Assembly (NCBI RefSeq): GCF_032051675.1
Contig: NZ_CP116968.1
Coordinates: forward strand, 2,356,001-2,420,000
Direction: 5' to 3'
Length of the DNA: 64,000 bases
DNA from: Candidatus Nitrospira neomarina
GTDB taxonomy: Bacteria; Nitrospirota; Nitrospiria; Nitrospirales; UBA8639
The translations under genes and the position numbers were made by a program. The notes below the pieces were generated by a model. That model was not told where the DNA came from and ran no database searches. It saw only the letters and a list, made by a program, of their open reading frames with translations. Position 1 is the stretch's first letter. Every line of letters starts with the position of its first letter. Positions 16,720-44,051 of this stretch are shown piece after piece.

Positions 16720-17213
16720 ATCCTCCCCTTTTTAAACAAATTGAACCCGAAAAAAAAGGCTTGCTGGTTCACTCCATACATCTACCAAACATGGACACCG
16801 ATGTATAGCAGTCAGCCGACACTCTTCTCATGAGAGGTCATCATTTGTTCCAAAACATTTCAGCATGGCCGGGAACTTCTCCGGCCCTTTCATGTCGTCA
16901 ATCGAGTTGGTCCCCTAAGTTCAGTGGTTCCCGTGGAGTTGACTCCACGGGTCATGGGCCCAATCCCTCAGTAATTTTCACCGCGCCCCTGCCTCCCACC
17001 GGAACATGAATGAAGGAGTGGCTTTCCTTCCCAATCAACCAAGCTTGAAAGAGCCGAAAGGGAATACCCACCGTCCCTGACGGGTTATAGGGCCAACAGA
17101 ACCCGGCAATTCGATGAAACAAATTTGAACCACATTAGACGATAGGGCATGTTGTTGCGAACGAACGTTCACGTACCCCATGTACTATTATTCTCTTGCC
17201 ATGGAGTCACCAG
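16720..17213. other. divergent intergenic region with hairpins
   Basis: This region lies between divergent genes and should hold both promoters. Two strong small hairpins are visible: GGCCGG/CCGGCC at 16867-16886 followed by CTTT, and CCCGTGGAG-TTGA-CTCCACGGG at 16930-16951. Neither has a full T-run. No gene is supported. Confidence 0.55.
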
Positions 17214-18320
17214 ATGAAAGCCATTGCCGTGATCCCCGGAAAACCCAACTCCATCCATTTACGACAGGTTCCTTCCCCTCGATTGGACCACATTCCCGAT
17301 CATCGAGGTGTGCTCATTCAGGTGCTTCGAGTCGGGGTGGATGGCACGGACAAGGAGATTAACGCCGCCGAATACGGGCAGGCCCCTCCAGGAGATGATT
17401 TTTTGATCACCGGCCATGAATGTTTTGGGCAGGTGCGCGAGGTGGGAAAAGAGGTCACGGAATTTGCCACCGGGGATTATGTGGTCCCGACGGTCAGACG
17501 GCCCGGACAAAGTTTTTATGATCAAATCGGTCAATACGATATGACTACGGACGAAGTGTATTTCGAACGAGGGATTAACTTGCGGCATGGGTATCTGACT
17601 GAGCACATCGTGGAACATCCCGATTATCTAGTGCGGATTCCGCAAGGCCTCAAACATGTGGGTGTGCTGTTGGAGCCCACCTCCGTTATTGAAAAAGGCA
17701 TCATCCAAGCATATGAAAGTCAGCGCCGACTCAAAATCTGGAGGCCGCGGCGGGCCGCCGTGTTGGGTGCCGGAACCATCGGGCTCCTGGCCGCGCTCTC
17801 CCTCCGCATGCGGGGACTGCAAGTCACCAACATCGGTCGGACTCCGCCGCCCTACCGCAACTCACGACTGCTGGAAGAAATCGGTGTCAGGTATGTCTCC
17901 AACCAGGAAATGCCTCTTCCTGACGCGGCCAAACACTTTGGCCCGTTTGACATCATGTTTGAAGCCACCGGCCATGCCCAAATGGTCTTCGAGGCCATGG
18001 AGCATCTGGGAAAAAACGGAGTATTGATTCTATCCAGCGTGACGGGAGGGGGACGGACCTTACAAGTGCCTGCCGACATGATTAACCTGGGATTTGTGTT
18101 AGGGAATAAAGTGATGGTCGGAACCGTGAATGCCAATCGCGAATATTTTGAAGCGGGGGTCTACGATCTGGCGCGGGCGGAGTTGGAGTATCCTGGCTGG
18201 CTGTCCAAGCTCCTGACTCATCCGGTTGACGGATTGGACCGCTATGAGGAGATGATGCGTTTACTGACCGAGGAAAAGGGCGCCATCAAAGTGTTCGTGA
18301 ATGTTGCCAAGGAATGTTGA
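17214..18320 (+). CDS. glucose dehydrogenase-like medium-chain dehydrogenase
   Basis: The 368-residue protein resembles the zinc-dependent glucose dehydrogenase branch known from archaea. The start at 17214 has GGAG seven nt upstream. Family marks are MKAIAVIPGKP at the start, the GVDGTDKEI segment, the catalytic-site GHECFGQV, VRRPG, FERGINLRHG, the LLEPTSVIEKG block and a nucleotide-binding AVLGAGTIGLLAAL. Position 2 of the CGTD motif is Asp instead of Cys, as in the haloarchaeal enzyme. The four cysteines of the usual structural-zinc lobe are absent between VRRPG and FERGI. It would oxidise glucose or a related sugar to the lactone with NAD(P). Sugar specificity is inferred. Confidence 0.82.
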   Translation: MKAIAVIPGKPNSIHLRQVPSPRLDHIPDHRGVLIQVLRVGVDGTDKEINAAEYGQAPPGDDFLITGHECFGQVREVGKEVTEFATGDYVVPTVRRPGQSFYDQIGQYDMTTDEVYFERGINLRHGYLTEHIVEHPDYLVRIPQGLKHVGVLLEPTSVIEKGIIQAYESQRRLKIWRPRRAAVLGAGTIGLLAALSLRMRGLQVTNIGRTPPPYRNSRLLEEIGVRYVSNQEMPLPDAAKHFGPFDIMFEATGHAQMVFEAMEHLGKNGVLILSSVTGGGRTLQVPADMINLGFVLGNKVMVGTVNANREYFEAGVYDLARAELEYPGWLSKLLTHPVDGLDRYEEMMRLLTEEKGAIKVFVNVAKEC

Positions 18321-23365: not shown

Positions 23366-24175
23366 TCAGGCACATTGTTTAAGGGGCCAGGGATCTAGAG
23401 GCTCCGGGTCGGACTGCTCCATGTAGGGTTGCAACGCCTCGCGGACTTTGGTTCGTGCCCGATGTAATAATACCCGTTGATTCGTATCGGAAAGATTGAG
23501 CATGCTGCACACTTCCTCAGACTCAAAGCCCTCAACATCCCGGAGGAGGATGACTTTGCGTTGCATGGCAGGAAGCCTGTGAATGGCTCCGGCAATTCGG
23601 TGAATGAGTTCCTTGTTCATGATCTGTTGATCCGCTGGAACATCGGGTTGAGACGACGTCCTATTTAAACAAGACCCGGGCCACGCCTCACCACCCAGGG
23701 CGATCATGTTTTCAAATGATTCCGCCCCCCCCTGTTCAGTCCCGTCTGATTTCCCGGGAAATTCCACATACCGGCTTTCCCGCACTCCCTGGGTTTTAGC
23801 CCGGTTCATAAGGATCCGAAACATCCAGGTTTTGAGCGATGAACGCCCTTCAAACCGGTGAATCCCCTCTAACACAGCCACCCAGGTGTCCTGGACCACC
23901 TCTTCGGCCACCGCTTCGCAATGAACGAATGTCATGGCCACACGGAGTAATGGGGAATGAAATCGCTCGACGAGCTCAGAAAAAGCATGTTCCTCTCCCC
24001 GCTTGATGGCCTCTACTAAAATCGCTTCGGCACTTCCAGCCTTGATGCCAACCAGCGATTGCGACGTATCCGATTCCTCGACACCCATGACAGAAGTCAT
24101 GAGACGTTCGGAACGATCAACCAAATGCTGGACAACAGGCAACACGTCAACGCAATTAGCCATGGCAGTATTCAT
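23366..24175 (-). CDS. ECF-type RNA polymerase sigma factor
   Basis: The 269-residue sigma factor has an N-terminal extension of about 65 residues. Region 2 follows (FSELVERFHSPLLRVAM, VVQDTWVAVLEGIHRFEG, LKTWMFRILMNRA), then a long acidic linker and region 4 (LPAMQRKVILLRDVEGFESE, LNLSDTNQRVLLHRARTKVR). GAGGAG precedes the ATG at good spacing. It starts 11 nt after the STAS-domain gene on the same strand, so the two form an operon. No anti-sigma gene with a zinc motif is adjacent, so control may run through the STAS protein or an unlinked regulator. Confidence 0.92.
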   Translation of the reverse strand: MNTAMANCVDVLPVVQHLVDRSERLMTSVMGVEESDTSQSLVGIKAGSAEAILVEAIKRGEEHAFSELVERFHSPLLRVAMTFVHCEAVAEEVVQDTWVAVLEGIHRFEGRSSLKTWMFRILMNRAKTQGVRESRYVEFPGKSDGTEQGGAESFENMIALGGEAWPGSCLNRTSSQPDVPADQQIMNKELIHRIAGAIHRLPAMQRKVILLRDVEGFESEEVCSMLNLSDTNQRVLLHRARTKVREALQPYMEQSDPEPLDPWPLKQCA

Positions 24176-24669: not shown

Positions 24670-27534
24670 CTATTTCTTCCGGGAAAGACCCAATTTTTTC
24701 ATTCGAGCTTCCAATGTTGTAGGCCTGAGTCCCAACAGTACCGCTGCACCGCCAGGACCGCTGATCTTCCATCCCACCTGCTCCAGAACCTGTTCGATAT
24801 GTCGCCGCTCACAGGCCTCTAACGTCAACACTTCTTCATTTTCACCAGCGTCTCCTACGGGTTGGGAATCAATCGTGATGGTTTGCAGACTCTTTCCTTC
24901 CGACAAAATAACGGCCCGCTCAATCACATGCTCCAACTCCCGAATATTCCCCGGCCAGCCGTATGAGATAAGCGTCTTCTGGAATATCTCGGGAATACCG
25001 GTAATTTTTTTCCCCATGCGGGCAGCATATTTCTGCACGAAGTATTCCGCTAACAGGGGAATATCTTCTTTCCGTTCCCGGAGGGAGGGAAGCGCGAGAG
25101 GAAAGACATTTAACCGGTAATATAAGTCCGGTCGAAATCTCCCTGCCCGTGTTTCCTGAGCTAACTCCCGATTCGTCGCCGCAATCACGCGAACGTGCAC
25201 CTGAATGGTTTTCGTTCCGCCCACCCGCTCAAATTCCCCTTCTTGTAGGACCCGCAACAGTTTGGATTGCACATCCAAGGGAATTTCCCCTATTTCATCA
25301 AGGAAGATGGTGCCCCCATCCGCTAATTCAAATCGGCCGATCTTTCGACTTAGCGCTCCCGTAAATGCTCCCTTTTCGTGTCCGAATAATTCGCTCTCGA
25401 TCAACCCTGACGGAATGGCCGCGCAGTTCACCTTGACCAACGGTTTGGTCTTGCGGGGACTCAAATTGTGAATAGCCCGCGCCATAAGTTCTTTGCCCGT
25501 TCCCGTTTCCCCGGTAATCAGAACTGTGGAATCGGTCGGCGCCACACGCTCCACATTTCGTAACACGGTCTTGAGGGCAGGTGATTCCCCAATTAACTCC
25601 TCGAAGTTGTGTACGCTCTGGATTTCTTCTCTGAGGTAGGTATTCTGCGCCTCAAGTTTGGCCTTCTCCTGTTCCATCAGAATGCGATCGGTAATATCCA
25701 GGAACATCGTGCGGGTGTACTTTTCGCTGGGGTCGGGCTTTGACCACCATTGGATCCATAACGGCTTGCCGTTATCCTTGCGGCGGAGCTCCAGTACGAC
25801 TCCGCCCGTGTCCGTGCCGCGACCCATAGCCGCAAGCGCATCCTGTAAGCGTCGCTGGGCATCAGGCGTGTCGGGAATGAATGTTTTTCCGAAGGTGTGA
25901 GGAACCTCTTCGGGCGTGATTCCCAGGATGTTCATCGCCGCACGATTGGCGCGGATAAAACGGGTATCCACTCCCTCATGGACATAGGCAATCGGAGCCT
26001 CGTCAAATAAATCCCGCAAACGCTCTTCGTTTTCGGCCAGCCGGGCATGGATGGTTTGGCGCTCCAATTCCGCTCCCGCCCTCGCGCCGAAAATTCGAAA
26101 GAGGGGGAGCAGCCGGGCATCCATGGGCATCGGACGCACGTCCAACGCGGCCAGATGTCCGAGCACGTCACCAGCCTGATTCACTAAGGGGATGGCCAGG
26201 TAACTTTCGGCTCCTAATTCAACCAACCCTTCTTCGTGCGGAAACAACTGTTGAATACGTTCCGGAAAATGACAGATCTCCCCGGCTAACACCTGTTTAC
26301 AGGGGCTATGCTCCAATTCATATTCAAAATTCGGTAGAAACCCTTCGCCTGTCCAGAAAGCCAGTGTGCGCACCTTGGTCTCGTTCGGGATCATTTCGGA
26401 CACGAAGGCATAACGCACGTCCAGGGCAGATGCCAAATTCTTCACGAGTGATTGGAAAAATTGATCACCGGTGGTCGCGGCCGTGCCCTCCACGATTTTT
26501 CTCAGGATCAACTCTCCGCGATGAACACTTTCCTCCAGGCGCATTCGGGCCAACTCGGTGGCCGCGCGTGCCGCGAATATTTTAAAGATGGAATAATCTT
26601 GCGGACTCGCCGACATCGGTTTGACATCAAGAGCCGCCAAATGCCCCAGCACGGTTCCATCGGAAGCAATCAATGGAATGGCCAGATACCCTTCCGCTTG
26701 TAATTCCACCAATGCCTGATCATTGGGAAACAGGGTTTGGACTCCGTGAGCGAAATGACAAATTTCGCCACGAATGACTTTTTCACAAGGCGTTCCCGCC
26801 AAATCATATTCAAAATTTTCGATAAACTTCTGTCCCTCCCAAAACGCCAGAGTCTTCACCCTGGTCCCTTCCTTGAGAAGTTCTCCCACAAAGGCGTACC
26901 GGACTCCGAGGGCGGCCGCCAGATTACGCGCCAGGGCTTGGAAAAACGCTTCTCCGGATGTCGTCGCGGTACCTTCATCCACCAAGCGAAGAATGAGATT
27001 ACTTTTTCGCAAGGCCTGATCCAGCCGGGCGCGTTCAATTTCCGCGACGAGACGACTCGCAAAGATTCGCATGACGGAGGCCGTCTCCTCCGTTTGAGGC
27101 ATCGGCTTGTCGTCCAGAACGGCCAAATGTCCCACAACCGTATTCGAGGAATCGATCAACGGGACGCCATAATAACTGGTGACATTCCATTCTTTGATCA
27201 ATGGACCGGCAGGATAGAGGGCAGCAAGATTTTCAGGATGGTGAACGATGTTTCGATTCAGCACAGACTCACAAGGCCCCCCCGGCAATACTGGAAACCG
27301 GGAAAGCAATCCATGGGGAGACCATCCGGCTTTCAACTGGTAACACCCTTCGGTCTCGGTTAACTCGGACACGTAGGCATATTGCACGCCAAGCGATTTG
27401 GCCAACTGCTCAATGAGCGATTCAAAGAAACGTTCACCCGTCTGAGTCTCAACGCCCTGAACGATATTGTGTAACGTCTGATCTTTGGCAGATGACAAAA
27501 GGGGAGAAGTTGAGGTGGTGAGTGCTTCGGCCAT
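24670..27534 (-). CDS. sigma-54-dependent activator with three GAF domains and a PAS domain
   Basis: The 954-residue enhancer-binding protein has three tandem GAF domains (about 20-175, 180-345, 345-515) sharing repeated blocks such as FLxxFEYxLxxSPCxxV and [16 protein letters not shown] domain (about 520-635) follows, then a coiled linker and an AAA+ domain with Walker A GETGTGKE near residue 675, the sigma-54-contacting GAFTGA loop and [14 protein letters not shown] Fis-type HTH lies at the end ([18 protein letters not shown]). It activates RpoN promoters in response to a ligand or redox state sensed by the GAF units, as in FhlA and NorR. It is transcribed divergently from the alternative oxidase gene, which makes that gene a candidate target. 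No -24/-12 element was found upstream of it. Confidence 0.95.
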
Positions 27535-27822
27535 AGCACCCTCCTTTGGATAGAAAACAGCCGGTCATACACACGTGAGCGAGGGAATGTGAACCCCGGT
27601 CACACAATGGGACTCTATTATCCATAAACAAATGCAGAAATGGAATACTTATCTTTGTTCCTGGCTTCGGGTTCAGCCGGGTGGGTGTACCAATTGGCTT
27701 ACTTTTCTCTCCCTTTTCCCTGTTCAACTGTAATACCAAGCCTCCATCGTCTGACTAACGGGGAAAATTTCCTGGTGACATCTCACCCGGGATCACCAAA
27801 AACCATCGACTTCATTATTACT

Positions 27823-28473
27823 ATGCTTTCCCACGAACAACTCCATAAAGAACAACAGAATTCGCTCGCCAGCCCGCCGATCCGTTATGGAATGCTCGCG
27901 AAAATCCTGTTTTTGACCATGGATATCGTGTACGGGCGTAAGCGAACCTGGAACAAATTTAAAATTTTGGAGCTCATCGCACGAGTTCCTTATCAGGCCT
28001 GGGAACACGTCGCCTATATTGCCATCACCCATTCCTACCACCAGGCGGACTTCGCCCGCCGCATCTACGAGAGAATCCAGGAATCCCGGCACCAGCAGGA
28101 CAATGAACAATGGCACTTGCTCATCCTGGAGGAATGGATTCATCGCCGCGGCATCCGTGAGGGGTTCCTGCGACACCGTCTGATCCCCCAAGTCATCGCC
28201 TTTGTCTACTACCACATCAGTTGGTTGTTATACGTCATCAACCCGTCTCTCAGTTATCGATTGAATATGGAATTTGAAGACCATGCCGAACGTGAATATA
28301 TGAGATTCGTGCAGGAGCATCCGGAATTCGATCGGGAACCGTTTATGAGTTGCTTCAAACAGGAATTCGGAAATTTTGACACGATGGGGGACGTTCTCCG
28401 CCAGATCGGATTCGACGAGCGCATGCACAAAGAGGACAGCTTGAAAAAAATTGAACAGGCACGGTTCACGTAA
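27823..28473 (+). CDS. diiron alternative oxidase (AOX/PTOX family)
   Basis: The 216-residue protein (start at 27823) carries all six carboxylate/histidine ligands of alternative oxidases in order: E50 (LELIARVPY), E95 and H98 (NEQWHL), E152 (EFEDHAEREY), and E199 and H202 (FDERMHKED). Their spacing is close to that of known AOX. The segments between them form the amphipathic helices that bind the membrane face, and there is no signal peptide. AOX oxidises quinol and reduces O2 to water without pumping protons, bypassing cytochrome oxidases. The lipoprotein gene follows by 36 nt, and the triple-GAF activator is divergent. The start is uncertain because a longer frame extends upstream to 27640. 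Confidence 0.88.
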   Translation: MLSHEQLHKEQQNSLASPPIRYGMLAKILFLTMDIVYGRKRTWNKFKILELIARVPYQAWEHVAYIAITHSYHQADFARRIYERIQESRHQQDNEQWHLLILEEWIHRRGIREGFLRHRLIPQVIAFVYYHISWLLYVINPSLSYRLNMEFEDHAEREYMRFVQEHPEFDREPFMSCFKQEFGNFDTMGDVLRQIGFDERMHKEDSLKKIEQARFT

Positions 28474-28509
28474 TTATCTTCCGCCTTGCAGCGAATCACA
28501 CACAATCTC

Positions 28510-29721
28510 ATGGCTACACCGATCCTCTTCACTCTTGGTATGGCCTTTATTGTAAGCCTGTCAGGTTGCCTATCACCCATCGCTCTTCATAAAGCCGTAT
28601 TGGAATACGACCGGACGGTCAACCGTGTGGAAGCCGAACTGCTGCTCCTGAATATTGCCCGTGCCCGTCAATACCATCCGATCCACTTCACGACGGTGTC
28701 CAGCGTCGCGGCCACCTTCGACTTTCGCACGGAGGCCGGCATCCTTGGTCGAATCGGTCCTTCGCCGGAAGATGCGCCGGTGGAGGTGGGATTCAGCACG
28801 AGTGTGGCAGAAAATCCCACGGTCACCATTATTCCCATATCCGGAGAAGAATTTACCAAACGCATTCTCAGGCCGCTGGACGAATCCCAGTTTGAATTTC
28901 TGGTTCATCAAGGGCTGGACATCAATATGCTCCTCCGGTTGATGGCCCGTGGTGTGCTTGTAGAAGAGGAAGGCACGTCCGTCACCCTCTTAAATAATCC
29001 CACTCACACAGATGATTACCGGCAATTCCGCCAACGACTTCTCCACCTGGCGGCGCTCAATCAATCCGGCCATCTCTTTATTCAGCCGTTATCGTATGAA
29101 GAAGCCTACCCTGTCGCGCTGGACCGTGCACTCACGCCGGTGGAGGTCGTGGCCGTTCTGGAGAAAGGGTACCGGTGGGTGCGGCCGGAGAAATCTTCAA
29201 CTCCCATGCTGATGCGCAAGATACTCGGACGCCTCGTCGTCACCAATTACAATCCGAATACGATGAGCAGTGACACACGCCGGGTTTTGAATGAAACGAT
29301 CAATCAGGACCCTCGGGACTGGGTCTACGTGGATATCCAGCCGGGATCTCCAGGAGGTAATTATCCCTTTCAGGGACGTATCATGCTCAGAAGCTTCAAT
29401 GCCATTCTCGGGTTTATCGCCAGAGGGATCGGAGAAGATCCTGAATTTCCCGTCGATGCGGATCCCCGAACCGATACGATCGGCCCCAACCCGGCCCGTA
29501 CGTTGGAAATTGCCGAAACCACTTCCCCACCGAACGATTCGGATTTCTCGGTGGAACTGGAAGGACGCCATTACTCGTTACGACGTGTCCCCGTGACGCA
29601 AGGAATGGTCCCAAGCTGGAACCAGGAAGCCTTCAGCGTTCTAACTAATCTATTTCAAATGACCGTCACCGACGTATCCAATACGAAAACCCCGTTGATC
29701 ACGATTCCCAAGGGCGAATAA
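28510..29721 (+). CDS. lipoprotein of unknown function
   Basis: The 403-residue product starts at the ATG at 28510, with an in-frame TTG eight codons upstream. It has a lipoprotein signal ending in LSGC. The N-terminal part has conserved-looking blocks (LHKAVLEYDRTVNRVEAELL, LLNIARARQYHPIHFTTVSS) that I have seen in uncharacterised bacterial envelope proteins, but no named domain can be given. A helical middle and a C-terminal beta-rich part (WVYVDIQPGSPGGNYPFQG, MLRSFNAILGFIARGIGE) follow. It lies 36 nt after the alternative oxidase gene and probably shares its transcript. Confidence 0.75.
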   Translation: MATPILFTLGMAFIVSLSGCLSPIALHKAVLEYDRTVNRVEAELLLLNIARARQYHPIHFTTVSSVAATFDFRTEAGILGRIGPSPEDAPVEVGFSTSVAENPTVTIIPISGEEFTKRILRPLDESQFEFLVHQGLDINMLLRLMARGVLVEEEGTSVTLLNNPTHTDDYRQFRQRLLHLAALNQSGHLFIQPLSYEEAYPVALDRALTPVEVVAVLEKGYRWVRPEKSSTPMLMRKILGRLVVTNYNPNTMSSDTRRVLNETINQDPRDWVYVDIQPGSPGGNYPFQGRIMLRSFNAILGFIARGIGEDPEFPVDADPRTDTIGPNPARTLEIAETTSPPNDSDFSVELEGRHYSLRRVPVTQGMVPSWNQEAFSVLTNLFQMTVTDVSNTKTPLITIPKGE

Positions 29722-31988: not shown

Positions 31989-33635
31989 ATGTCGGCATAC
32001 TGGCACATATTCATCTTACTGACGGTTTTCGTATGGCATTCCGCCTGGCTCCCTTCTGCCTGGAGCACAACCTCGGTATTGAATAAGCGGCCGGATGCGA
32101 TCATAGATCTTATGACCGAGGAGGGCGTCCAACTGGTGAAGGGACAGTGGCGATATCAGGATACCTCGCTGGTGGAAGTCACGCATCCAGGTCCCGGCGT
32201 GGATTTGGGACCGAGCGGCCCTCCAATCCGCACGTTCGATGTGTTGCCTCATGCCGGCGTGAAGGAGTTTGACGATTCGTCCTGGCAACCTATTCCGGCA
32301 CCGGGTTTGGAAACCAGACGAGCCACAGGAAAATTGTGCTTTAACTGGTACCGCATCAACCTCACCATGCCCGAACGGATCGGAACCTTCAACACCGCAG
32401 GATCAACGGCCGTGTTTGAAATCGTGATTGACGATTATGCGGAAGTCTGGGTGGACGGCAAACTTCCCCTGGTTCTCGGCCAATCCGGAGACCACCTCAT
32501 TCAGGGTTTTAACGCTCCCAACCGTGTCGTGCTTTCCCGCCATGTGCAACCCGGCCAGACCATCCAACTCGCCGTGTTCGGAGTGAACGGTCCCTTATCC
32601 AATCCTCCCGGAAATTTCATATGGGTTCGATCGGCGACGCTTGATTTTTATCAGGCATTCCGGATCGAACAGAACAAAGAATTTGTCGGGAACGTGGTCC
32701 GGAAGGATCCGGCCCTCGATGCCATCGTCTCCCCCGAAACCAAACTGGAAAAACTCGCCTCAGGCTTCTCGTTTACCGAAGGTCCCGTATGGGTACCCAA
32801 AACCGACAAGACCGACGGGTATCTGTTGTTCAGCGATCCCAACGACAACACGATTTATCGCATGACGGCGGAAGGCACGGTTTCCGTCTTCAGGGTGAAG
32901 AGCGGGTACTCCGGTTTCAATATCGGTGAATACCATCAGGCAGGCTCGAACGGACTCGCCTTGGATCACCAGGGACGACTGACCATCAATCAACACGGGA
33001 ATCGCCGTATCATCCGGGTTGAACCACACGGGAATATCACCGTCCTCGCGGACCGGTATGAGGGGAAGCGGCTCAACAGCCCGAATGATCTGGTGTATAG
33101 ATCCGACGGGTCGCTTTACTTCACCGATCCCCCATTCGGCCTTCCCAATGCATTCACCGATTCCCGGAAGGAACTGCCCTATAGCGGGGTATTCCGTTGG
33201 CATGAAGGGAGGCTTCAATTGGTGGCCAACGACTTACGCGGACCCAACGGCCTTGCCTTCTCGCCGGATGAAACATATTTATATGTCGACAATTGGGATC
33301 CCGAGAAAAAAATCATTATGCGCTATGACGTGCAGCCAGATGGGACATTGTCGAACGGACAGGTGTTCTTTGATATGACCCACGCCACCGGGGAGGATGC
33401 CCTTGACGGGTTAAAAGTGGATCAGCAGGGAAATGTGTATGCGACCGGACCCGGCGGATTATGGATCCTTTCGCCCGAAGGCAAACACCTCGGAACCATT
33501 CAGGGACCTGAAAATCCTCATAACATGGCGTGGGGTGATGACGACCGGCAGACTTTATACATCACGGCAGAATCGGGAATTTATCGCATCCGCCTGAATA
33601 CCTCAGGTGCCGCGTCAAAGAAAGACCCCACATGA
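31989..33635 (+). CDS. SMP-30/gluconolactonase with N-terminal beta domain
   Basis: The 548-residue secreted protein has a signal peptide (about 1-27). A beta-sandwich domain of galactose-binding or jelly-roll type follows (about 60-220: VFEIVIDDYAEVWVDGKLP). The C-terminal part (about 235-540) is a six-bladed SMP-30/gluconolactonase propeller with the family boxes FTEGPVWVP, NDLVYRSDGSLYFTDPPFG, LRGPNGLAFSPDETYLYVDN and DGLKVDQQGNVYATGPGG. The Asn/Asp residues in these boxes bind the catalytic divalent metal. It would hydrolyse an aldonolactone. Its stop overlaps the ATG of the next lactonase (ATGA), so the two are translationally coupled. Confidence 0.92.
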   Translation: MSAYWHIFILLTVFVWHSAWLPSAWSTTSVLNKRPDAIIDLMTEEGVQLVKGQWRYQDTSLVEVTHPGPGVDLGPSGPPIRTFDVLPHAGVKEFDDSSWQPIPAPGLETRRATGKLCFNWYRINLTMPERIGTFNTAGSTAVFEIVIDDYAEVWVDGKLPLVLGQSGDHLIQGFNAPNRVVLSRHVQPGQTIQLAVFGVNGPLSNPPGNFIWVRSATLDFYQAFRIEQNKEFVGNVVRKDPALDAIVSPETKLEKLASGFSFTEGPVWVPKTDKTDGYLLFSDPNDNTIYRMTAEGTVSVFRVKSGYSGFNIGEYHQAGSNGLALDHQGRLTINQHGNRRIIRVEPHGNITVLADRYEGKRLNSPNDLVYRSDGSLYFTDPPFGLPNAFTDSRKELPYSGVFRWHEGRLQLVANDLRGPNGLAFSPDETYLYVDNWDPEKKIIMRYDVQPDGTLSNGQVFFDMTHATGEDALDGLKVDQQGNVYATGPGGLWILSPEGKHLGTIQGPENPHNMAWGDDDRQTLYITAESGIYRIRLNTSGAASKKDPT

Positions 33636-34693
33636 CACCGGCACATCGTCGACCCTCCAGTCTGATGATCGTCCTCGCCCTTTTCTGGTATCTGGGATTT
33701 CCGCTTTTCGCCTTATCGGGAGACTCCATGAACCCGATGGCCGCATCCGGGATCCGCCTCATCTCACTGGACCCACGTTTCGAACACATGCTGTCGCCGG
33801 ATACACCCCTGGAAATACTTGCGGAGGGGTTTACGTGGGTGGAAGGTCCGGTCTGGAGATCGGCTGACAACACGCTTGCATTCTCCGACATTCCGGACAA
33901 CTCCGTGTTCATCTGGAAAGCGGGAAAACCGGCCACACGCTTGTTGTATCCCAGCGGCTACTCAGGAATGACACGATTTGGGGGTGCCGAGCCGGGTTCA
34001 AACGGATTAACGCTTGATGCCACGGGCCGATTGGTTCTATGCCAACATGGAGACCGTCGTATCGCGCGATTGGAATCGAATGGGCAACTCACCGTCCTGG
34101 CCGATCGGTATCAGGGGCGGCGCCTGAACAGTCCGAACGATCTCGTATACAAATCGAATGGCGATCTGTATTTCACCGATCCCCCGTTTGGTCTACCCAA
34201 GCAATTTGACGATTCTTCAAAGGAACTATCTTTTCAAGGCGTCTACCGTCTCACCCCGCAGGGCCGTCTGGATGTGATCATCCGGGATATCGTCGCCCCG
34301 AATGGCTTGGCGTTTTCTCCCGATGAAAAAAGGCTCTATGTGACCGATGTGAATCCCAAACGTGCTGCCTGGCTCGTCTATGATGTCCTTGGGGATGGAA
34401 CGGTCACGAACGGTCGGGTCTTCGCCGATGCCACACCCTGGCGGAAAGATCCGTATTTCGGACCCGATGGTATCAAGGTCGATAAGGACGGCAATGTGTG
34501 GGGAGCCCGCCCTGGCGGGATCAACACCTTTGGCCCTGATGGCGATTTATTGGGGATGATCGAAACCGGCATGCCGACCTCTAATCTGAATTGGGGAGAA
34601 GACGGCAGCATCCTCTTTATCACAGGAGGTTCCACCGTTTACCGTTTGAAAACCACAACCCGTGGTGCAATCGCTCAATCTCCTCTTCAATGA
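33632..34693 (+). CDS. SMP-30/gluconolactonase, secreted
   Basis: The 353-residue protein is a single SMP-30 propeller with an N-terminal export signal (about 12-30). Boxes are GFTWVEGPVWR, SNGLTLDATGRLVLCQHGDR, NDLVYKSNGDLYFTDPPFG, APNGLAFSPDEKRLYVTD and DGIKVDKDGNVWGARPGG. It overlaps the previous lactonase by four bases and shares its motifs closely, so the pair probably arose by duplication of the propeller. It should hydrolyse gluconolactone-type lactones, products of the sugar oxidoreductases nearby. Confidence 0.93.
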   Translation: MTPAHRRPSSLMIVLALFWYLGFPLFALSGDSMNPMAASGIRLISLDPRFEHMLSPDTPLEILAEGFTWVEGPVWRSADNTLAFSDIPDNSVFIWKAGKPATRLLYPSGYSGMTRFGGAEPGSNGLTLDATGRLVLCQHGDRRIARLESNGQLTVLADRYQGRRLNSPNDLVYKSNGDLYFTDPPFGLPKQFDDSSKELSFQGVYRLTPQGRLDVIIRDIVAPNGLAFSPDEKRLYVTDVNPKRAAWLVYDVLGDGTVTNGRVFADATPWRKDPYFGPDGIKVDKDGNVWGARPGGINTFGPDGDLLGMIETGMPTSNLNWGEDGSILFITGGSTVYRLKTTTRGAIAQSPLQ

Positions 34694-34911
34694 GTTTGTG
34701 TATTCAACGGCCTCCCGCCGCCGTGTTTTCACAATGCTGACCTTCCGATTATTCCGTTCATATCCGTAACAAAAACTTCGATCATCCGACCAATAGGTGA
34801 AAATAAACGAATAACCTTTTGGACCATCCGGATTAGGAATTCCCAAACACCGCCAACTCATACCGAATATTGCCCGGTGCAGACCCGGCTCACAAAAAGG
34901 AGGATCACATC

Positions 34912-35418
34912 ATGGCCACGATAACTGCAACAACCAGCCTGACCCATAAAGTGGATATCGGACAGACGATCACCAGGATGGGAATATTTCTGACGAGATT
35001 GGGCCTCGTCATCGTTTTTCTTTGGATCGGTGCCATGAAGTTTACCGCCTATGAAGCTCAGGCCATTCAACCGTTGGTGGCCAACAGCCCGTTCATGAGT
35101 TGGCTGTATGGTCTCTTCAGCATCCAGGCTTTCTCGAATGGTTTAGGAGTGCTGGAAATCACCATCGGCTTGATGATTGCCGCCAGAGAAATTTCCCCGC
35201 TGGTGTCTGCAATCGGGAGCGCGTTCGGCGCCGTATTATTTTTGGGCACACTGAGTTTTATGGTTTCCACGCCTCCGGTGTGGGAAGCCACTCTGGGTGG
35301 GTTCCCGGCCTTGTCAGTCGCACCGGGGCAGTTTCTTTTAAAGGATCTGGCTCTCCTGGGAGCCGCCATTTGGATATGTGGGGAATCTCTGGAGGCCATG
35401 AAAAATCGATTTGCATAA
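34912..35418 (+). CDS. RclC/YkgB-like membrane protein (DUF417)
   Basis: The ATG at 34912 follows AAGGAGG. The 168-residue protein has four hydrophobic helices and the DUF417 hallmarks: LGLVIVFLWIGAMKFTAYEA, VANSPFMSWLY, the GVLEITIGLM helix and LSFMVSTPPVWE. The E. coli member RclC (YkgB) is part of the hypochlorous-acid resistance operon, and its mechanism is not known. Finding one in the same window as a chlorite dismutase suggests a wider oxychlorine or oxidant response, but that link is an inference. Confidence 0.85.
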   Translation: MATITATTSLTHKVDIGQTITRMGIFLTRLGLVIVFLWIGAMKFTAYEAQAIQPLVANSPFMSWLYGLFSIQAFSNGLGVLEITIGLMIAAREISPLVSAIGSAFGAVLFLGTLSFMVSTPPVWEATLGGFPALSVAPGQFLLKDLALLGAAIWICGESLEAMKNRFA

Positions 35419-36682: not shown

Positions 36683-38233
36683 ATGTCCAACTCCAATCAT
36701 TATGATGTCATCATTATCGGAACCGGAGCCGGCGGAGGCACACTGGCGTATCGACTGGCCCCGACAGGGAAAAAAATTCTTCTGCTGGAGCGAGGGAATT
36801 ATCTCCCGCGTGAAAAGGATAATTGGAATTCCCGCGCCGTCTTCGTGGACAGTAAATATAAAGCCAGGGTGACCTGGAAAGACAAACAGGGCCACCCATT
36901 CCATCCCGGCATTCATTACTATGTGGGAGGCAACACGAAGGTCTATGGAGCTGCCCTTCTCCGCTTCCGGCAGGAGGATTTCGGCGAAGTCAAACATCAC
37001 GGCGGCGTATCTCCTGCCTGGCCCATCCAGTATCAGGATTTGGAACCCTATTATACGGAGGCCGAACACTTGTACCACGTGCATGGCCGACACAGTGAAG
37101 ATCCCACCGACCCTCCGGTCAGCGCCGATTACCGCTATCCAGCCATGCGTCACGAACCCCGAATCCAGGAATTGCATGAAGACTGGCAGCGATTGGGTTA
37201 TCGCCCCTTTCATTTGCCGGTTGGCGTCATGTTGGATGAAGAACGACCCTCTCAGAGCCGATGCATCCGGTGTAATACCTGTGACGGCTTCCCGTGCGTC
37301 ATGAATGCCAAGGCCGATGCCCAGGTTGTTTGCGTGGATCCTGCTCTTCAACATTCCAATGTCACACTGCTGACTCAAGCTGAAGTCATCAAACTGGATA
37401 CCAACGCTTCCGGCAGATCAGTCACGTTCGTTCACGCCAAGTGCGGTGAGGCGCTTCGAACATTCTCCGCGGATATGGTGGTGGTAGCCTGCGGCGCCAT
37501 CAACTCGGCGGCACTGCTGTTGCGATCGGCCAACTCCCAACATCCTCATGGCCTGGCCAATTCATCGGGTGTGGTGGGACGCCATTATATGTGCCATAAC
37601 AATTCCGTCATGCTGGCGATTTCCAAGCGGCCCAATCCGACGCAATTCCAAAAAACAATCGGATTGAACGATTTTTATTTTGGCTCTCCGGATTGGCATT
37701 TCCCCATGGGCCATATATCCATGGTGGGAAAACAGGATCTGGACATGCTCAAATCCGGCGCACCAGGCTTTGCACCAGGGATGGCCTTGGATGTTATGGC
37801 CAAACATTCTTTGGATTTCTGGATGACCTCCGAAGATCTTCCGGACCCTGATAATCGCGTCGAAGTGGATCGAGACGGTCAGATCACCCTGCGCTATAAG
37901 GACAATAATCTGGAAGGACACCGAAGGCTGGCGGCAACCCTCAAGGGCATGCTGAACCGGATTGGATGCGAGGAACGGCTGCTCCCCTCACACCTCTATC
38001 TTGGCAAAAAAATTCCCATTGCCGGCACGGCCCATCAATGCGGCACCATTCGTTTCGGTTATGACCCTACGACGTCTGCCCTGGATATCAACTGCCGGGC
38101 CCATGACCTGGACAATCTCTATGTGGTCGACGCCAGCTTTTTCGTCTCCAGTACCGCGGTGAATCCATCCCTCACGATTATGGCCAATGCCCTGAGAGTT
38201 GGTGACCACATTAAGGAGCGTCTCCAAGCATGA
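36683..38233 (+). CDS. GMC-family FAD oxidoreductase
   Basis: The 516-residue flavoprotein has the dinucleotide motif VIIIGTGAGGGTLAYRLA near the start, an FAD-linked GGNTKVYGAALLR block, and the C-terminal GMC domain with NLYVVDASFFVSSTAVNPSL. A Cys cluster in the middle (CIRCNTCDGFPC) is typical of one bacterial subgroup. The active-site His in HQCGTIRFG is visible. These enzymes oxidise sugars, polyols or other alcohols. There is no signal peptide, unlike the neighbouring lactonases, so it may act inside or be exported with a partner. Its stop overlaps the ATG of the VOC gene. Confidence 0.92.
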   Translation: MSNSNHYDVIIIGTGAGGGTLAYRLAPTGKKILLLERGNYLPREKDNWNSRAVFVDSKYKARVTWKDKQGHPFHPGIHYYVGGNTKVYGAALLRFRQEDFGEVKHHGGVSPAWPIQYQDLEPYYTEAEHLYHVHGRHSEDPTDPPVSADYRYPAMRHEPRIQELHEDWQRLGYRPFHLPVGVMLDEERPSQSRCIRCNTCDGFPCVMNAKADAQVVCVDPALQHSNVTLLTQAEVIKLDTNASGRSVTFVHAKCGEALRTFSADMVVVACGAINSAALLLRSANSQHPHGLANSSGVVGRHYMCHNNSVMLAISKRPNPTQFQKTIGLNDFYFGSPDWHFPMGHISMVGKQDLDMLKSGAPGFAPGMALDVMAKHSLDFWMTSEDLPDPDNRVEVDRDGQITLRYKDNNLEGHRRLAATLKGMLNRIGCEERLLPSHLYLGKKIPIAGTAHQCGTIRFGYDPTTSALDINCRAHDLDNLYVVDASFFVSSTAVNPSLTIMANALRVGDHIKERLQA

Positions 38234-39292: not shown

Positions 39293-41962
39293 ATGCCCAA
39301 AGCCCCGCTCCACCTGACAAAAGAAGAAGCACGATTAGAGGAAGCCAAAAAGCGCACCGTGCATTGGAAACGGTGGGGACCCTATCTGAGTGAACGCCAA
39401 TGGGGCACCGTTCGTGAGGATTACAGCCCCCACGGGAACGCCTGGGAATACTTCTCTCACGACCAGGCCCGCTCACGCGCCTATCGGTGGGGCGAGGATG
39501 GCATCGGTGGCATCTGCGACCGCCACCAGCAGATTTGCTTTGCGCTGGCGCTCTGGAACGGAAAAGATCCGATTCTGAAGGAACGCTTGTTTGGCTTGAC
39601 CGGGAACGAAGGCAATCATGGGGAAGACGTCAAAGAGTATTACTTTTACCTGGACTCCACACCGACGCATTCCTACATGAAGTTTTTGTATAAATATCCC
39701 CAACACCCGTTTCCCTATGCCCAATTGATCGAAGAAAACCGGAAGCGGGGCAAACACGATTGGGAATATGAGTTGATGGACACGGGTGTGTTTGATGACA
39801 ACCGGTATTTCGACGTGTTTATCGAATATGCCAAAGCCACACACGAAGACATCCTGATCATGATTACTGCTCATAACCGGGGGCCTGACGCCGCGGAGCT
39901 TCATGTGTTGCCGACCATCTGGTTCCGCAACACCTGGTTCTGGACGCCGCATGCGCCACGTCCCACTCTCAATCGGGATGAAGACCTTGGCGATGCGCAG
40001 GCCATCCACCTGGACCATGAACAATACGGGTCGCGATGGTTGTTATGCGAAGGCACACCGGACATGCTCTTTACCGAAAATGACACCAATACACAGCGAC
40101 TGTATGGGGTGCCCAACGCCGGCCCCTACGTCAAAGACGGGATCAATGACTATATCGTCGCCGGCACACAAGGGACAGTGAATCCGCAACAAGTGGGAAC
40201 GAAGGCTGCGATCCATTATCATCCCTTGATTGCTCCCGGACAAAGCATCACCTACCGACTGCGATTGACCAACCTCCCTCCGACCGAGGGCCAGTTGGGC
40301 GAAGAATTTGAAACCCTTTTCCCGGCGCGCCAACAGGAAGCGGATGAATTTTTTGCCAAACGACTCGGAACGTGCCATTCCGCCGATGCCCAAAATGTTC
40401 AGCGTCAGGCATTTGCGGGGATGCTGTGGAGCAAACAGTTTTATCATTTTGACGTGCGCACCTGGCTTGCCGGCGACCCCACAGGACCGTCGCCTCCCGC
40501 AGGGCGAAAAGATGGCCGGAACACGGATTGGAAGCATCTCTATAATGAAGACATTATTTCCATGCCCGACAAATGGGAATATCCGTGGTTTGCCGCCTGG
40601 GACCTTGCCTTTCATTGCGTGCCGTTGGCTCTGGTCGATCCCGATTTCGCGAAGGACCAGCTCCGGTTGCTGGTACGCGAATGGTACATGCATCCCAACG
40701 GTCAAATTCCGGCCTATGAGTGGGCGTTCGGCGATGTGAATCCGCCCGTCCACGCCTGGGCCACCTGGCGGGTGTATAAAATTGAAAAACGCATCAGGGG
40801 CAAAGCCGACCGGGTGTGGTTAGCCAAGATATTCCATAAACTCCTGCTGAACTTTACCTGGTGGGTCAACCGGAAAGATGCCGATGGCCGGAATATTTTT
40901 CAGGGAGGGTTCCTCGGACTGGATAATATCGGCCTTTTCGACCGGTCCGCGCCGCTTCCCACCGGCGGATATATCGATCAATCCGACGGCACCAGCTGGA
41001 TGGGCATGTATTGCCTGAATATGCTGGCCATTGCCCTGGAACTGGCACGACACGATCCATCTTACGGCGATGTGGCCAGCAAGTTCTTTGAACATTTTGT
41101 CTACATCTCGCACGCCATTAATCACATCGGGGAAGGCAATCACGAAGCCTCCCTCTGGGATGAGACCGACGGCTTCTATTATGACATGCTGCATTTTCCG
41201 GACGGCCACCATCAACAAATGAAGGTCCGGTCCATGGTGGGATTGATCCCGCTCTTTGCCGTTGAAACGTTGGAACCGGAAGTGGTGGATGCCTTGCCGG
41301 GCTTTAAACGGCGCCTGTTGTGGTTTATCGAAAACCGCCCGGAATTCCGGCGTCATGTCTGTTCAACCAGCCTGCCGGATGGAAGTGTTCGTCGGATGCT
41401 CTCCATAGTGGATCAGGAACAACTTCCTCGCGTCATGAAGTACATGCTGGATGAAGAAGAATTTCTCTCCACGTATGGCATTCGAGCCTTATCAAAATAC
41501 CATCAAGACCACCCCTATGTGCTCCATGTGAATGGAGATGAACATCGCGTGGATTATGAACCGGCCGAATCCAAAACAGGGTTGTTCGGCGGCAACTCCA
41601 ATTGGCGGGGACCGGTTTGGTTTCCGGTCAATTTTCTGCTCATCGAATCATTACAAAAGTTCCATCATTTCTTCGGCGATCAGCTCACCATGGAATGCCC
41701 GACCGGATCAGGATCGCAACAAACTTTGTGGCAAGTCGCGGCGGAACTATCCCGTCGTCTCAATCGTCTCTTCCTTCGTGATCCTTCCGGGCATCGACCG
41801 GTCTTCGGGGGAGTCGCCAAGTTTCAACAGGATCCGCATTGGCGGGATTACCTGTTATTCCATGAATATTTTCACGGAGACAATGGGGCGGGATTAGGCG
41901 CCAGCCACCAAACGGGCTGGACCGGACTTGTCACCAAACTGTTGGAACAATCAGGAGAATAG
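39293..41962 (+). CDS. GH63-like large glucosidase
   Basis: The 889-residue protein starts after GGGAG. It belongs to a bacterial family usually annotated as glucosidase and related to GH63 (mannosyl-oligosaccharide glucosidase). The N-terminal beta domain includes [18 protein letters not shown] and [19 protein letters not shown]. The C-terminal (alpha/alpha)6 barrel contains [36 protein letters not shown] and [20 protein letters not shown], where catalytic acids normally lie. There is no signal peptide. It stops 4 nt before the start of the GH133-like gene, which indicates an operon. Substrate is probably an alpha-glucoside. Confidence 0.88.
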
Positions 41963-41966
41963 GACC

Positions 41967-44051
41967 ATGCCTTCCACGACAAAGCCGTCAGACCGCAGGC
42001 CAACCCTGTCCCGGAGCGCACCAGCCTGGCCACAGGTCGTGGATGTTGGCAGAGAAATTTGCGGCGATTTGTGGCTGTCCGAACGGCGGGAATGGCTCGT
42101 CACTAATGGCATCGGAGGGTTTGCCTCCGGCACCGTGGCGGGTTCCCTGACCCGACGGTATCACGGCCTGCTCATTGCCGCCCTCAAGCCACCCCTCGGA
42201 CGCACCTTGTTGGTCAGCAAACTGGAAGAAACTGTGGAGTACCAGGAACAAATCGTTCAGCTCTCCACCAACCATTGGCATAGCGGAACCGTGGCGCCAG
42301 CGGGATTTGTCTTCCTGGAACGCTTCCGCCTGGAAGGCACGACACCGGTCTGGACGTTTGCCATCGGGGACGCATTAGTCGAAAAGCGCATATGGATGGA
42401 ACCCGGTGAGAATACCACGTACGTGCAGTACGCCTTCACCAGAGGATCGCTTCCGATTCGCCTCAATCTGCGAGCCTTCATCAATCACCGGGACTACCAT
42501 GGCATCACGCTGGACACTCTTCATGAATTTTCAACCACCGCCATCCCGCATGGACTCCAGATTCTACCCGCAGAAGGTTCTCCGTTTATCCTGTCCGCAT
42601 CGGGAGGATCGGTTGAAGCCGCCAATATGTGGTACCACAATTACGATCTGCCGCTCGAACGCGAACGGGGACTTCCCGATCGGGAACATCATCTGCACAT
42701 CGGCACATGGAACATCGACTTGAAACCGGGCGAAGTGATCACCTGGATGGCCAGCACCCGTCTTAAGCCGTCCAGACCCGCTGCTTCGTGTTTCGAATTA
42801 CGCCGACGCCATGATATGGCATTACTCCAATCGGAACCTACGGTAAAACAATCGCCCCAGGGTTGGCCGGACTGGATCCAACAGCTCACACTGGCCGCCG
42901 ATCAATTTATCGCCTCACGCCCCCTGGCAACTCATGACGCCGGTCATACCATCATTGCCGGGTATCACTGGTTTGGGGATTGGGGCCGGGACACGATGAT
43001 CAGCCTGCCGGGACTCACCCTGACCACCAGGCGCGTTGACATCGCTCGCAGCATTCTGTCGACGTTCGCGCAATATGCCAATCAAGGCATGCTGCCCAAT
43101 CGTTTCCCCGATGCGGGGGAGGAACCGGAATACAACACCGTTGATGCGACGCTCTGGTACGTCGAGGCCGTCCGTCAATATGTGGACGCCACCGATGATC
43201 GCACCTTTCTCAAAACGATCTTTCCCGTGCTTGTCGAGATGCTGGCGTGGTACCGCAAGGGCACCAGGTTTGGAATCGGTATGGATCCCGCCGATCACTT
43301 ACTTCATGCCGGAGAGCCGGGCGTACAGCTCACCTGGATGGATGCCAAGATCGGAGACTGGGTCGTGACTCCGCGGGTCGGCAAACCTGTCGAGATCAAT
43401 GCGCTGTGGTACCAAGCCTGGCTGACCTTGGGCCAATTGGCCAGGACCATGAAAGAGCCGCACGAGGAATTTCTACAAACAGCCAAGGCCATCCACACAT
43501 CCTTTCAACGGTTCTGGGACGAACGATTACACCGCTGTTATGACGTGGTGGACGGACCGCATGGCCATGATCCGGCCCCACGACCCAATCAATTGTTCGC
43601 CGTGTCCCTGCCAAACAGTCCGCTCACCTACAAACAGCAACATGCTGTCGTGGATTATTGCGCCCAACATCTCTACACATCGTATGGGTTACGCAGCCTG
43701 GGACAGGAAGATCCCCAATACGTAGGACAGTATGAAGGAGATACCCGGCAGAGGGATGGCGCCTATCATCAAGGCACCGTGTGGGGCTGGCTACTTGGTC
43801 CTTTTGTGCTGGCACACTTTCGGGTCTATCGCAATCCCGAAGCTGCTCGATCGTATCTTGCACCGATGGCTCATCATCTCAACGATTACGGACTGGGAAC
43901 GCTGGGAGAAATTTTTGACGGCCAACCTCCGTACGCTCCACGTGGCTGCATCGCCCAAGCCTGGACCGTGGCCGAAATCCTCCGCGCCTGGCATCTCATT
44001 CACACGTCCACCAACAAGCATAGAACAGAAAACCATACGCCCCAAAAATAA
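41967..44051 (+). CDS. glycogen debranching enzyme-type amylo-alpha-1,6-glucosidase (GH133-like)
   Basis: The start at 41967 follows AGGAG. The 694-residue protein has the N-terminal domain typical of bacterial debranching enzymes (WLVTNGIGGFASGTVAGSLT, RRYHGLLIAAL) and the (alpha/alpha)6 catalytic barrel with AGYHWFGDWGRDTMISLPGL, MLPNRFPDAGEEPEYNTVDA and GAYHQGTVWGWLLGPFV. These enzymes release glucose from alpha-1,6 branch points. It lies in one operon with the GH63-like gene, suggesting joint breakdown of a storage or external alpha-glucan. Diverged copies of its 3' end occur near 47345 and 50292, each followed by the same type of repeat as here. Confidence 0.92.
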   Translation: MPSTTKPSDRRPTLSRSAPAWPQVVDVGREICGDLWLSERREWLVTNGIGGFASGTVAGSLTRRYHGLLIAALKPPLGRTLLVSKLEETVEYQEQIVQLSTNHWHSGTVAPAGFVFLERFRLEGTTPVWTFAIGDALVEKRIWMEPGENTTYVQYAFTRGSLPIRLNLRAFINHRDYHGITLDTLHEFSTTAIPHGLQILPAEGSPFILSASGGSVEAANMWYHNYDLPLERERGLPDREHHLHIGTWNIDLKPGEVITWMASTRLKPSRPAASCFELRRRHDMALLQSEPTVKQSPQGWPDWIQQLTLAADQFIASRPLATHDAGHTIIAGYHWFGDWGRDTMISLPGLTLTTRRVDIARSILSTFAQYANQGMLPNRFPDAGEEPEYNTVDATLWYVEAVRQYVDATDDRTFLKTIFPVLVEMLAWYRKGTRFGIGMDPADHLLHAGEPGVQLTWMDAKIGDWVVTPRVGKPVEINALWYQAWLTLGQLARTMKEPHEEFLQTAKAIHTSFQRFWDERLHRCYDVVDGPHGHDPAPRPNQLFAVSLPNSPLTYKQQHAVVDYCAQHLYTSYGLRSLGQEDPQYVGQYEGDTRQRDGAYHQGTVWGWLLGPFVLAHFRVYRNPEAARSYLAPMAHHLNDYGLGTLGEIFDGQPPYAPRGCIAQAWTVAEILRAWHLIHTSTNKHRTENHTPQK

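Follow-up and report, generated by a model that had tools for sequence, protein, structure and literature searches.

The window, the whole 64,000-nucleotide stretch of Candidatus Nitrospira neomarina DNA that we analyzed, contains an open reading frame at positions 27823..28473 on the plus strand that translates without a stop into 216 amino acids and has its terminus exactly at position 28473. The frame could be extended upstream to an ATG at 27640. Since the relatives of the protein begin near 27823 in alignments, but no Shine-Dalgarno sequence is evident before that position, we regard 27823 as only the probable translation start. We found no sigma-54 promoter upstream of the gene, and sigma-70-like sites there were no more frequent than expected by chance. 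This is the only gene of the alternative oxidase (AOX) family in the 4.80-Mb, single-contig host genome. Its third-position GC content (0.64) is like that of its neighbors (about 0.6), and recent import was rejected on that ground.

Divergent from the oxidase gene is a gene (24670..27534, minus strand) for a sigma-54 activator with three GAF domains, a PAS domain, an AAA domain, and a Fis-type HTH. Its position, and the presence of a relative near the oxidase gene of another genome, G283, make it a candidate regulator. G283 comes from another Nitrospirales family; 47 kb of it was compared with the window. The product of a gene for an ECF sigma factor (23366..24175, minus strand) has a relative (37% identity) encoded just upstream of the oxidase gene in G283. 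A gene for a lipoprotein of unknown function (28486..29721, plus strand) follows the oxidase stop codon after 12 bp and is likely cotranscribed with the oxidase gene. The lipoprotein gene adjoins the oxidase gene at the related locus L008 as well, and lies 3 kb from it in G283; its product had no Pfam or NCBIfam match, and its structure model reached a pLDDT of only 33.

A preliminary description of the locus had read the gene as an alternative oxidase in a Nitrospira-like genome, with all six diiron ligands in order and near-canonically spaced. Consistent with this assignment at the level of the superfamily, the protein matched the Pfam AOX family (PF01786) at 38.8 bits (cutoff, 22.7; E, 1e-9). 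No other Pfam family and no NCBIfam family matched. Among 84,980 species genomes scanned, we found 18 relatives with 57 to 85% identity. Given the Pfam E value and the occurrence of these relatives in eight phyla, the AOX match is far beyond chance. The ligands (E50, E95, H98, E152, E199, and H202) are all present and, together with Y159, are invariant among the relatives wherever the sequences reach. Their spacing, 45/3/54/47/3, is close to that of the AOX of Trypanosoma brucei (39/3/48/53/3), and to this extent the earlier reading stands; each of the three wide gaps, however, is off by six residues, the first two being longer and the third shorter. We conclude that the open reading frame is a genuine gene of the superfamily that comprises AOX and the chloroplast-type plastoquinol terminal oxidase (PTOX).

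Searches of the PDB by sequence, with the window protein and with a profile of its relatives, returned no true relative; the protein is therefore tied to solved AOX structures through Pfam and through comparison of folds. An AlphaFold model built from 24 members of the clade to which the protein belongs (pLDDT, 92; pTM, 0.89) distributes the six ligands (four Glu, two His) over the four helices of a single predicted bundle, which resembles that of AOX. In a Foldseek search against the PDB, all 14 matches with an E value of <0.001 were trypanosome AOX chains. Structural alignment of the model with trypanosome AOX by VIA-align gave a Z score of 20.6 (root mean square deviation, 2.4 Å over 198 residues). 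The runners-up were nigerythrin, with a Z score of 13.0, and then ferritin-like proteins; VIA-align warns that a Z score near 13.0 may reflect only a common helical bundle. Ferritin-like, Coq7, and R2-type diiron families were rejected because their structural match was far poorer than that of AOX, and no diiron family that we compared fits the protein better. The most hydrophobic helices, residues 24 to 37 and 115 to 139, are as expected for a monotopic enzyme, and the protein presumably binds the membrane through them.

We built profiles for PTOX (seven sequences), AOX (four sequences), and the clade (45 sequences) and compared the window protein with them. It scored 71.5 bits with the PTOX profile and 17.4 bits with the AOX profile; shuffled sequences peaked at 5.2 and 4.7 bits, respectively. 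Comparison of the profiles by hhalign gave an E value of 4e-19 for the clade against PTOX (32% identity over 168 columns) and 4.6e-7 for the clade against AOX. In a phylogenetic tree, the new clade (support, 99/98), PTOX (95/96), and AOX (100/99) each fell on one side of a branch; PTOX was represented in this tree by cyanobacterial and phage sequences only. A larger tree recovered the new clade and AOX but did not sort PTOX into a clade: its cyanobacterial sequences and a single phage sequence on a long branch lay near the middle. The kinship with AOX that the preliminary description proposed is borne out at the level of the superfamily, but the protein falls in neither the AOX clade nor the PTOX clade. 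Based on these comparisons of sequence, we conclude that the oxidase is in a third clade beside mitochondrial-type AOX and cyanobacterial PTOX, and nearer to PTOX than to AOX. The clade is apparently undescribed.

Within this clade, the window protein groups with four further Nitrospirota sequences (98/91), and a second Nitrospirota group lies elsewhere. Because there are two such separate groups, transfer between phyla within the clade is likely. Two divergent members, L046 (genome G510) and L070 (genome G800), have 36 to 37% identity to the window protein. Both retain the complete set of six ligands, and in L046 a Thr takes the place of E158. They form a possible sub-branch, and their joining may be due to long-branch attraction.

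PTOX, which occurs in cyanobacteria, their plasmids, and cyanophages, shares with the window protein the six ligands, the LExIARVPY motif of helix 2, and an equivalent of AOX Tyr220. The automatic alignment breaks helix 2 of PTOX, and a gap-free alignment places W60 and E61 opposite a Tyr and a Leu of PTOX. The identity to PTOX is about 30%, the spacing between helices 2 and 3 is six residues longer in the window protein, and the clade hosts are not phototrophs of the kind that carry PTOX. An insert before the last helix is found in cyanobacterial PTOX and is absent from the window protein, as it is from phage PTOX. AOX of mitochondria and Pseudomonadota, of which the T. brucei enzyme (3VV9) has 15% identity to the window protein, has the same fold and the same six ligands.

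In trypanosome AOX, Tyr220 is the site of a catalytic radical, an ion-pair cluster for proton uptake pairs Glu215 with Arg96 and Asp100 with Arg118, and Thr219 and Arg118 contact the quinol (PMC11492382). Tyr220 aligns with Y159 of the window protein, which is invariant in the clade, and Asp100 corresponds to D34, which is nearly so. In contrast, Glu215 and Arg96 of AOX are replaced by His154 and Phe30. This replacement is PTOX-like, since the two positions are occupied in PTOX by His and a hydrophobic residue. Arg118 and Thr219 are replaced by Lys45 and Glu158, a pair of changes seen in neither AOX nor PTOX. In the narrow sense, the protein is therefore not an AOX, lying outside the AOX clade and having His154/Phe30 for Glu215/Arg96, and it is not a PTOX, lying outside the PTOX clade and lacking the insert before the last helix. 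With less certainty, we infer that the proton-accepting pairs have been rewired, from Glu215/Arg96, Asp100/Arg118, and Thr219 to His154/Phe30, Asp34/Lys45, and Glu158. Since two residues that contact the quinol in AOX differ (Arg118 to Lys and Thr219 to Glu), the substrate that binds in the pocket may be a different one.

The clade spans at least eight phyla, namely Nitrospirota, Rokubacteria/Methylomirabilota, Omnitrophota, Myxococcota, Planctomycetota, Chlorobiota, Kiritimatiellota, and Actinomycetota, and most of its members lie in metagenome-assembled genomes. PF01786 was detected in 7 of 396 Nitrospirota genomes and, for the phyla of the Myxococcota, Rokubacteria, and Omnitrophota loci, in 7 of 284, 21 of 95, and 18 of 237 genomes, respectively. 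All extracted PF01786 matches other than L046 and L070 belong to the clade (≥56% identity to the window protein); none of those extracted is a canonical AOX or PTOX. The host family has PF01786 in 2 of its 49 genomes, both among the 21 genomes of the host genus. Hence, the oxidase gene is rare in the host genus, and most Nitrospira genomes are without it. Carriage of the clade by viruses was rejected, as no relatives were found in viral contigs and the matches in plasmids and phages were of the PTOX type only. One relative (L047; G720 contig 1, near position 2511393) lies in a 2.8-Mb genome from the phylum of the Rokubacteria locus; this genome matched the COX1 family eleven times and bd-type oxidases not at all.

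According to a survey of oxygen reductases published in 2025, AOX is restricted to Pseudomonadota and PTOX to Cyanobacteriota, and PTOX is untouched by lateral transfer; metagenome-assembled genomes were mostly missing from its data set (PMC7618691). In the literature on AOX in Nitrospira, Omnitrophota, Methylomirabilis, and comammox bacteria that fell within our scope, which took in few subscription journals and no preprints, we found no report of the clade.

The host genome was searched with the Nitrospira nxrB primer pair. Each primer found an exact match, the two lying 485 bp apart, at three loci outside the window (2932642-2933126, 2946068-2946552, and 3360702-3361186 of the host contig, G000:C1). 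From these exact matches, we conclude that the host is a Nitrospira-type nitrite oxidizer, as had been supposed. COX1-type oxidases gave a single match in the genome. Cyt_bd_oxida_I gave eight, at positions that include 892252, 2486994, and 4054813, outside the window; two cover the full length with strong scores (474 and 462 bits), and the other six are partial, with weak scores (66 to 79 bits). The window oxidase is thus not the sole oxidase of its host. Several other hosts of the clade have no COX1-type match.

Cultured Nitrospira strains contain only methyl-plastoquinones (E0′, 57 to 59 mV); ubiquinone and menaquinone were not found (PMC12324825). In keeping with this, MqnA/MqnD and MenD were above the cutoff in none of the 8 Nitrospirota hosts tested; among 22 other hosts tested, MqnA/MqnD was present in 17 and MenD in three. 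The PTOX-like character of the protein fits the use of methyl-plastoquinone by Nitrospira. Published models place the quinones of nitrite-oxidizing Nitrospira off the path from nitrite to O2 (PMC12324825). Consequently, relief of over-reduction, as proposed in the preliminary description, would concern electrons from sugars, H2, or formate, or from reverse electron flow.

Comparison with G283 defined the wider neighborhood of the gene. Thirteen open reading frames of the window, all located from 17.2 to 39.3 kb, are related (37 to 74% identity) to twelve frames of G283, which lie, in shuffled order, within 28 kb of one contig; outside this interval, no frame of the window matched the 47 kb of G283 that was compared. 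The shared cluster (17196-39258) encodes a zinc-dependent glucose-dehydrogenase-type enzyme (17196..18320, plus strand; PF16912), a MIP channel, the ECF sigma factor, the GAF sigma-54 activator, the oxidase, the lipoprotein, HbpS-like proteins, two SMP-30/gluconolactonase-like proteins (31989-33635 and 33632-34693, plus strand), a GMC-family FAD oxidoreductase (36683..38233, plus strand), and a glyoxalase-like protein. Also in the cluster, at 34870-35418, is a gene for a DUF417 protein akin to RclC, a membrane protein for reactive-chlorine resistance (110 bits; cutoff, 275). Genes for an MGH1-like glycoside hydrolase and a glycogen debranching enzyme follow directly (39293-44051) and extend the carbohydrate theme of the cluster. 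No neighbor is conserved across phyla outside the Nitrospirales. Judged by its gene content, 17196-39258 is apparently a sugar-oxidation cluster in a nitrite oxidizer, and the GMC oxidoreductase may feed electrons into the quinone pool. This cluster, seen in two genomes only, suggests that the enzyme serves overflow from sugar oxidation rather than resistance to NO, the role entertained earlier. None of our results favors a function in tolerance of NO or cyanide.

We consider it probable that the product of the gene is a quinol:O2 oxidoreductase of a third AOX/PTOX clade, monotopic and heme free, with a diiron center. The diiron center would reduce O2 to water with electrons from the membrane quinol, without pumping protons. 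In the host, the quinol would be methyl-plastoquinol, given the published quinone chemistry; a nonpumping methyl-plastoquinol:O2 oxidase is proposed because cultured Nitrospira strains use methyl-plastoquinone only. The least certain step is the role in Nitrospirales, where the enzyme may act as a safety valve, draining the quinone pool of electrons delivered by the oxidation of sugars or other organic compounds. The quinone content of cultured Nitrospira and the quinone-pathway genes of the hosts suggest that the window enzyme may oxidize methyl-plastoquinol and that relatives elsewhere may oxidize menaquinol. Our broadest proposal is tentative: a third class of diiron quinol oxidases, their proton-loading site rewired, that would occur in eight or more phyla, mainly uncultured ones, with methyl-plastoquinol as the substrate in Nitrospirota and menaquinol elsewhere.

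The same enzyme could instead serve mainly in defense against O2 or oxidant stress, scavenging O2 or keeping the quinone pool oxidized, rather than in sugar overflow. The two regulators of the shared cluster, the nearby RclC-related protein (although below its cutoff), the several hosts without a COX1-type match, and the groundwater-derived lineages among the relatives are in line with this role; the cluster, however, consists mostly of carbohydrate-oxidation genes, and we hold a primary role in defense to be rather unlikely. A diiron hydroxylase or oxygenase of quinone or another lipid, similar to Coq7 but on an AOX-like scaffold, is improbable. Lys45 and Glu158 alter the pocket, and the ligands and catalytic Tyr would also suit a different diiron oxidation. 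Coq7 (demethoxyubiquinone hydroxylase) has, as do ferritin-like proteins, a diiron four-helix bundle, and it is attached to the membrane, where it acts on quinone. Nevertheless, its Z score with the model was only 12.2 over 134 residues, within the usual range for helical bundles and far below the AOX match, there was no sequence family match, and the catalytic Tyr of AOX is invariant in the clade. Moreover, synthesis of the quinone does not require the gene, since cultured Nitrospira strains produce methyl-plastoquinone, yet the gene occurs in only 2 of 21 genomes of the genus. A canonical mitochondrial-type AOX from Pseudomonadota, tolerant of NO and cyanide, is very improbable, since for all its identical fold and ligands the protein scores just 17.4 bits with the AOX profile, belongs to a separate supported clade, and lacks Glu215 and Arg96, and although NO genes can adjoin such a gene (the Azospirillum AOX gene lies between an Rrf2 regulator gene and genes for a truncated hemoglobin and nirK), we recognized none comparable beside the oxidase gene among the neighbors scanned.

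A third clade of diiron quinol oxidases is at odds with the map that assigns AOX to Pseudomonadota and PTOX to Cyanobacteriota (PMC7618691). The clade bears on the origins of AOX and PTOX and on the range of quinols that such enzymes can use. One relative is in a cultured actinomycete, the type strain Granulicoccus phenolivorans DSM 17626, which also has a menaquinone-pathway gene, and the menaquinol question is directly testable there. If the proposal is correct, we know of no earlier AOX-type enzyme shown to work in a menaquinone-based respiratory chain, and this would be the first. For Nitrospira, the oxidase would provide the recently discovered methyl-plastoquinone pool with a nonpumping outlet.
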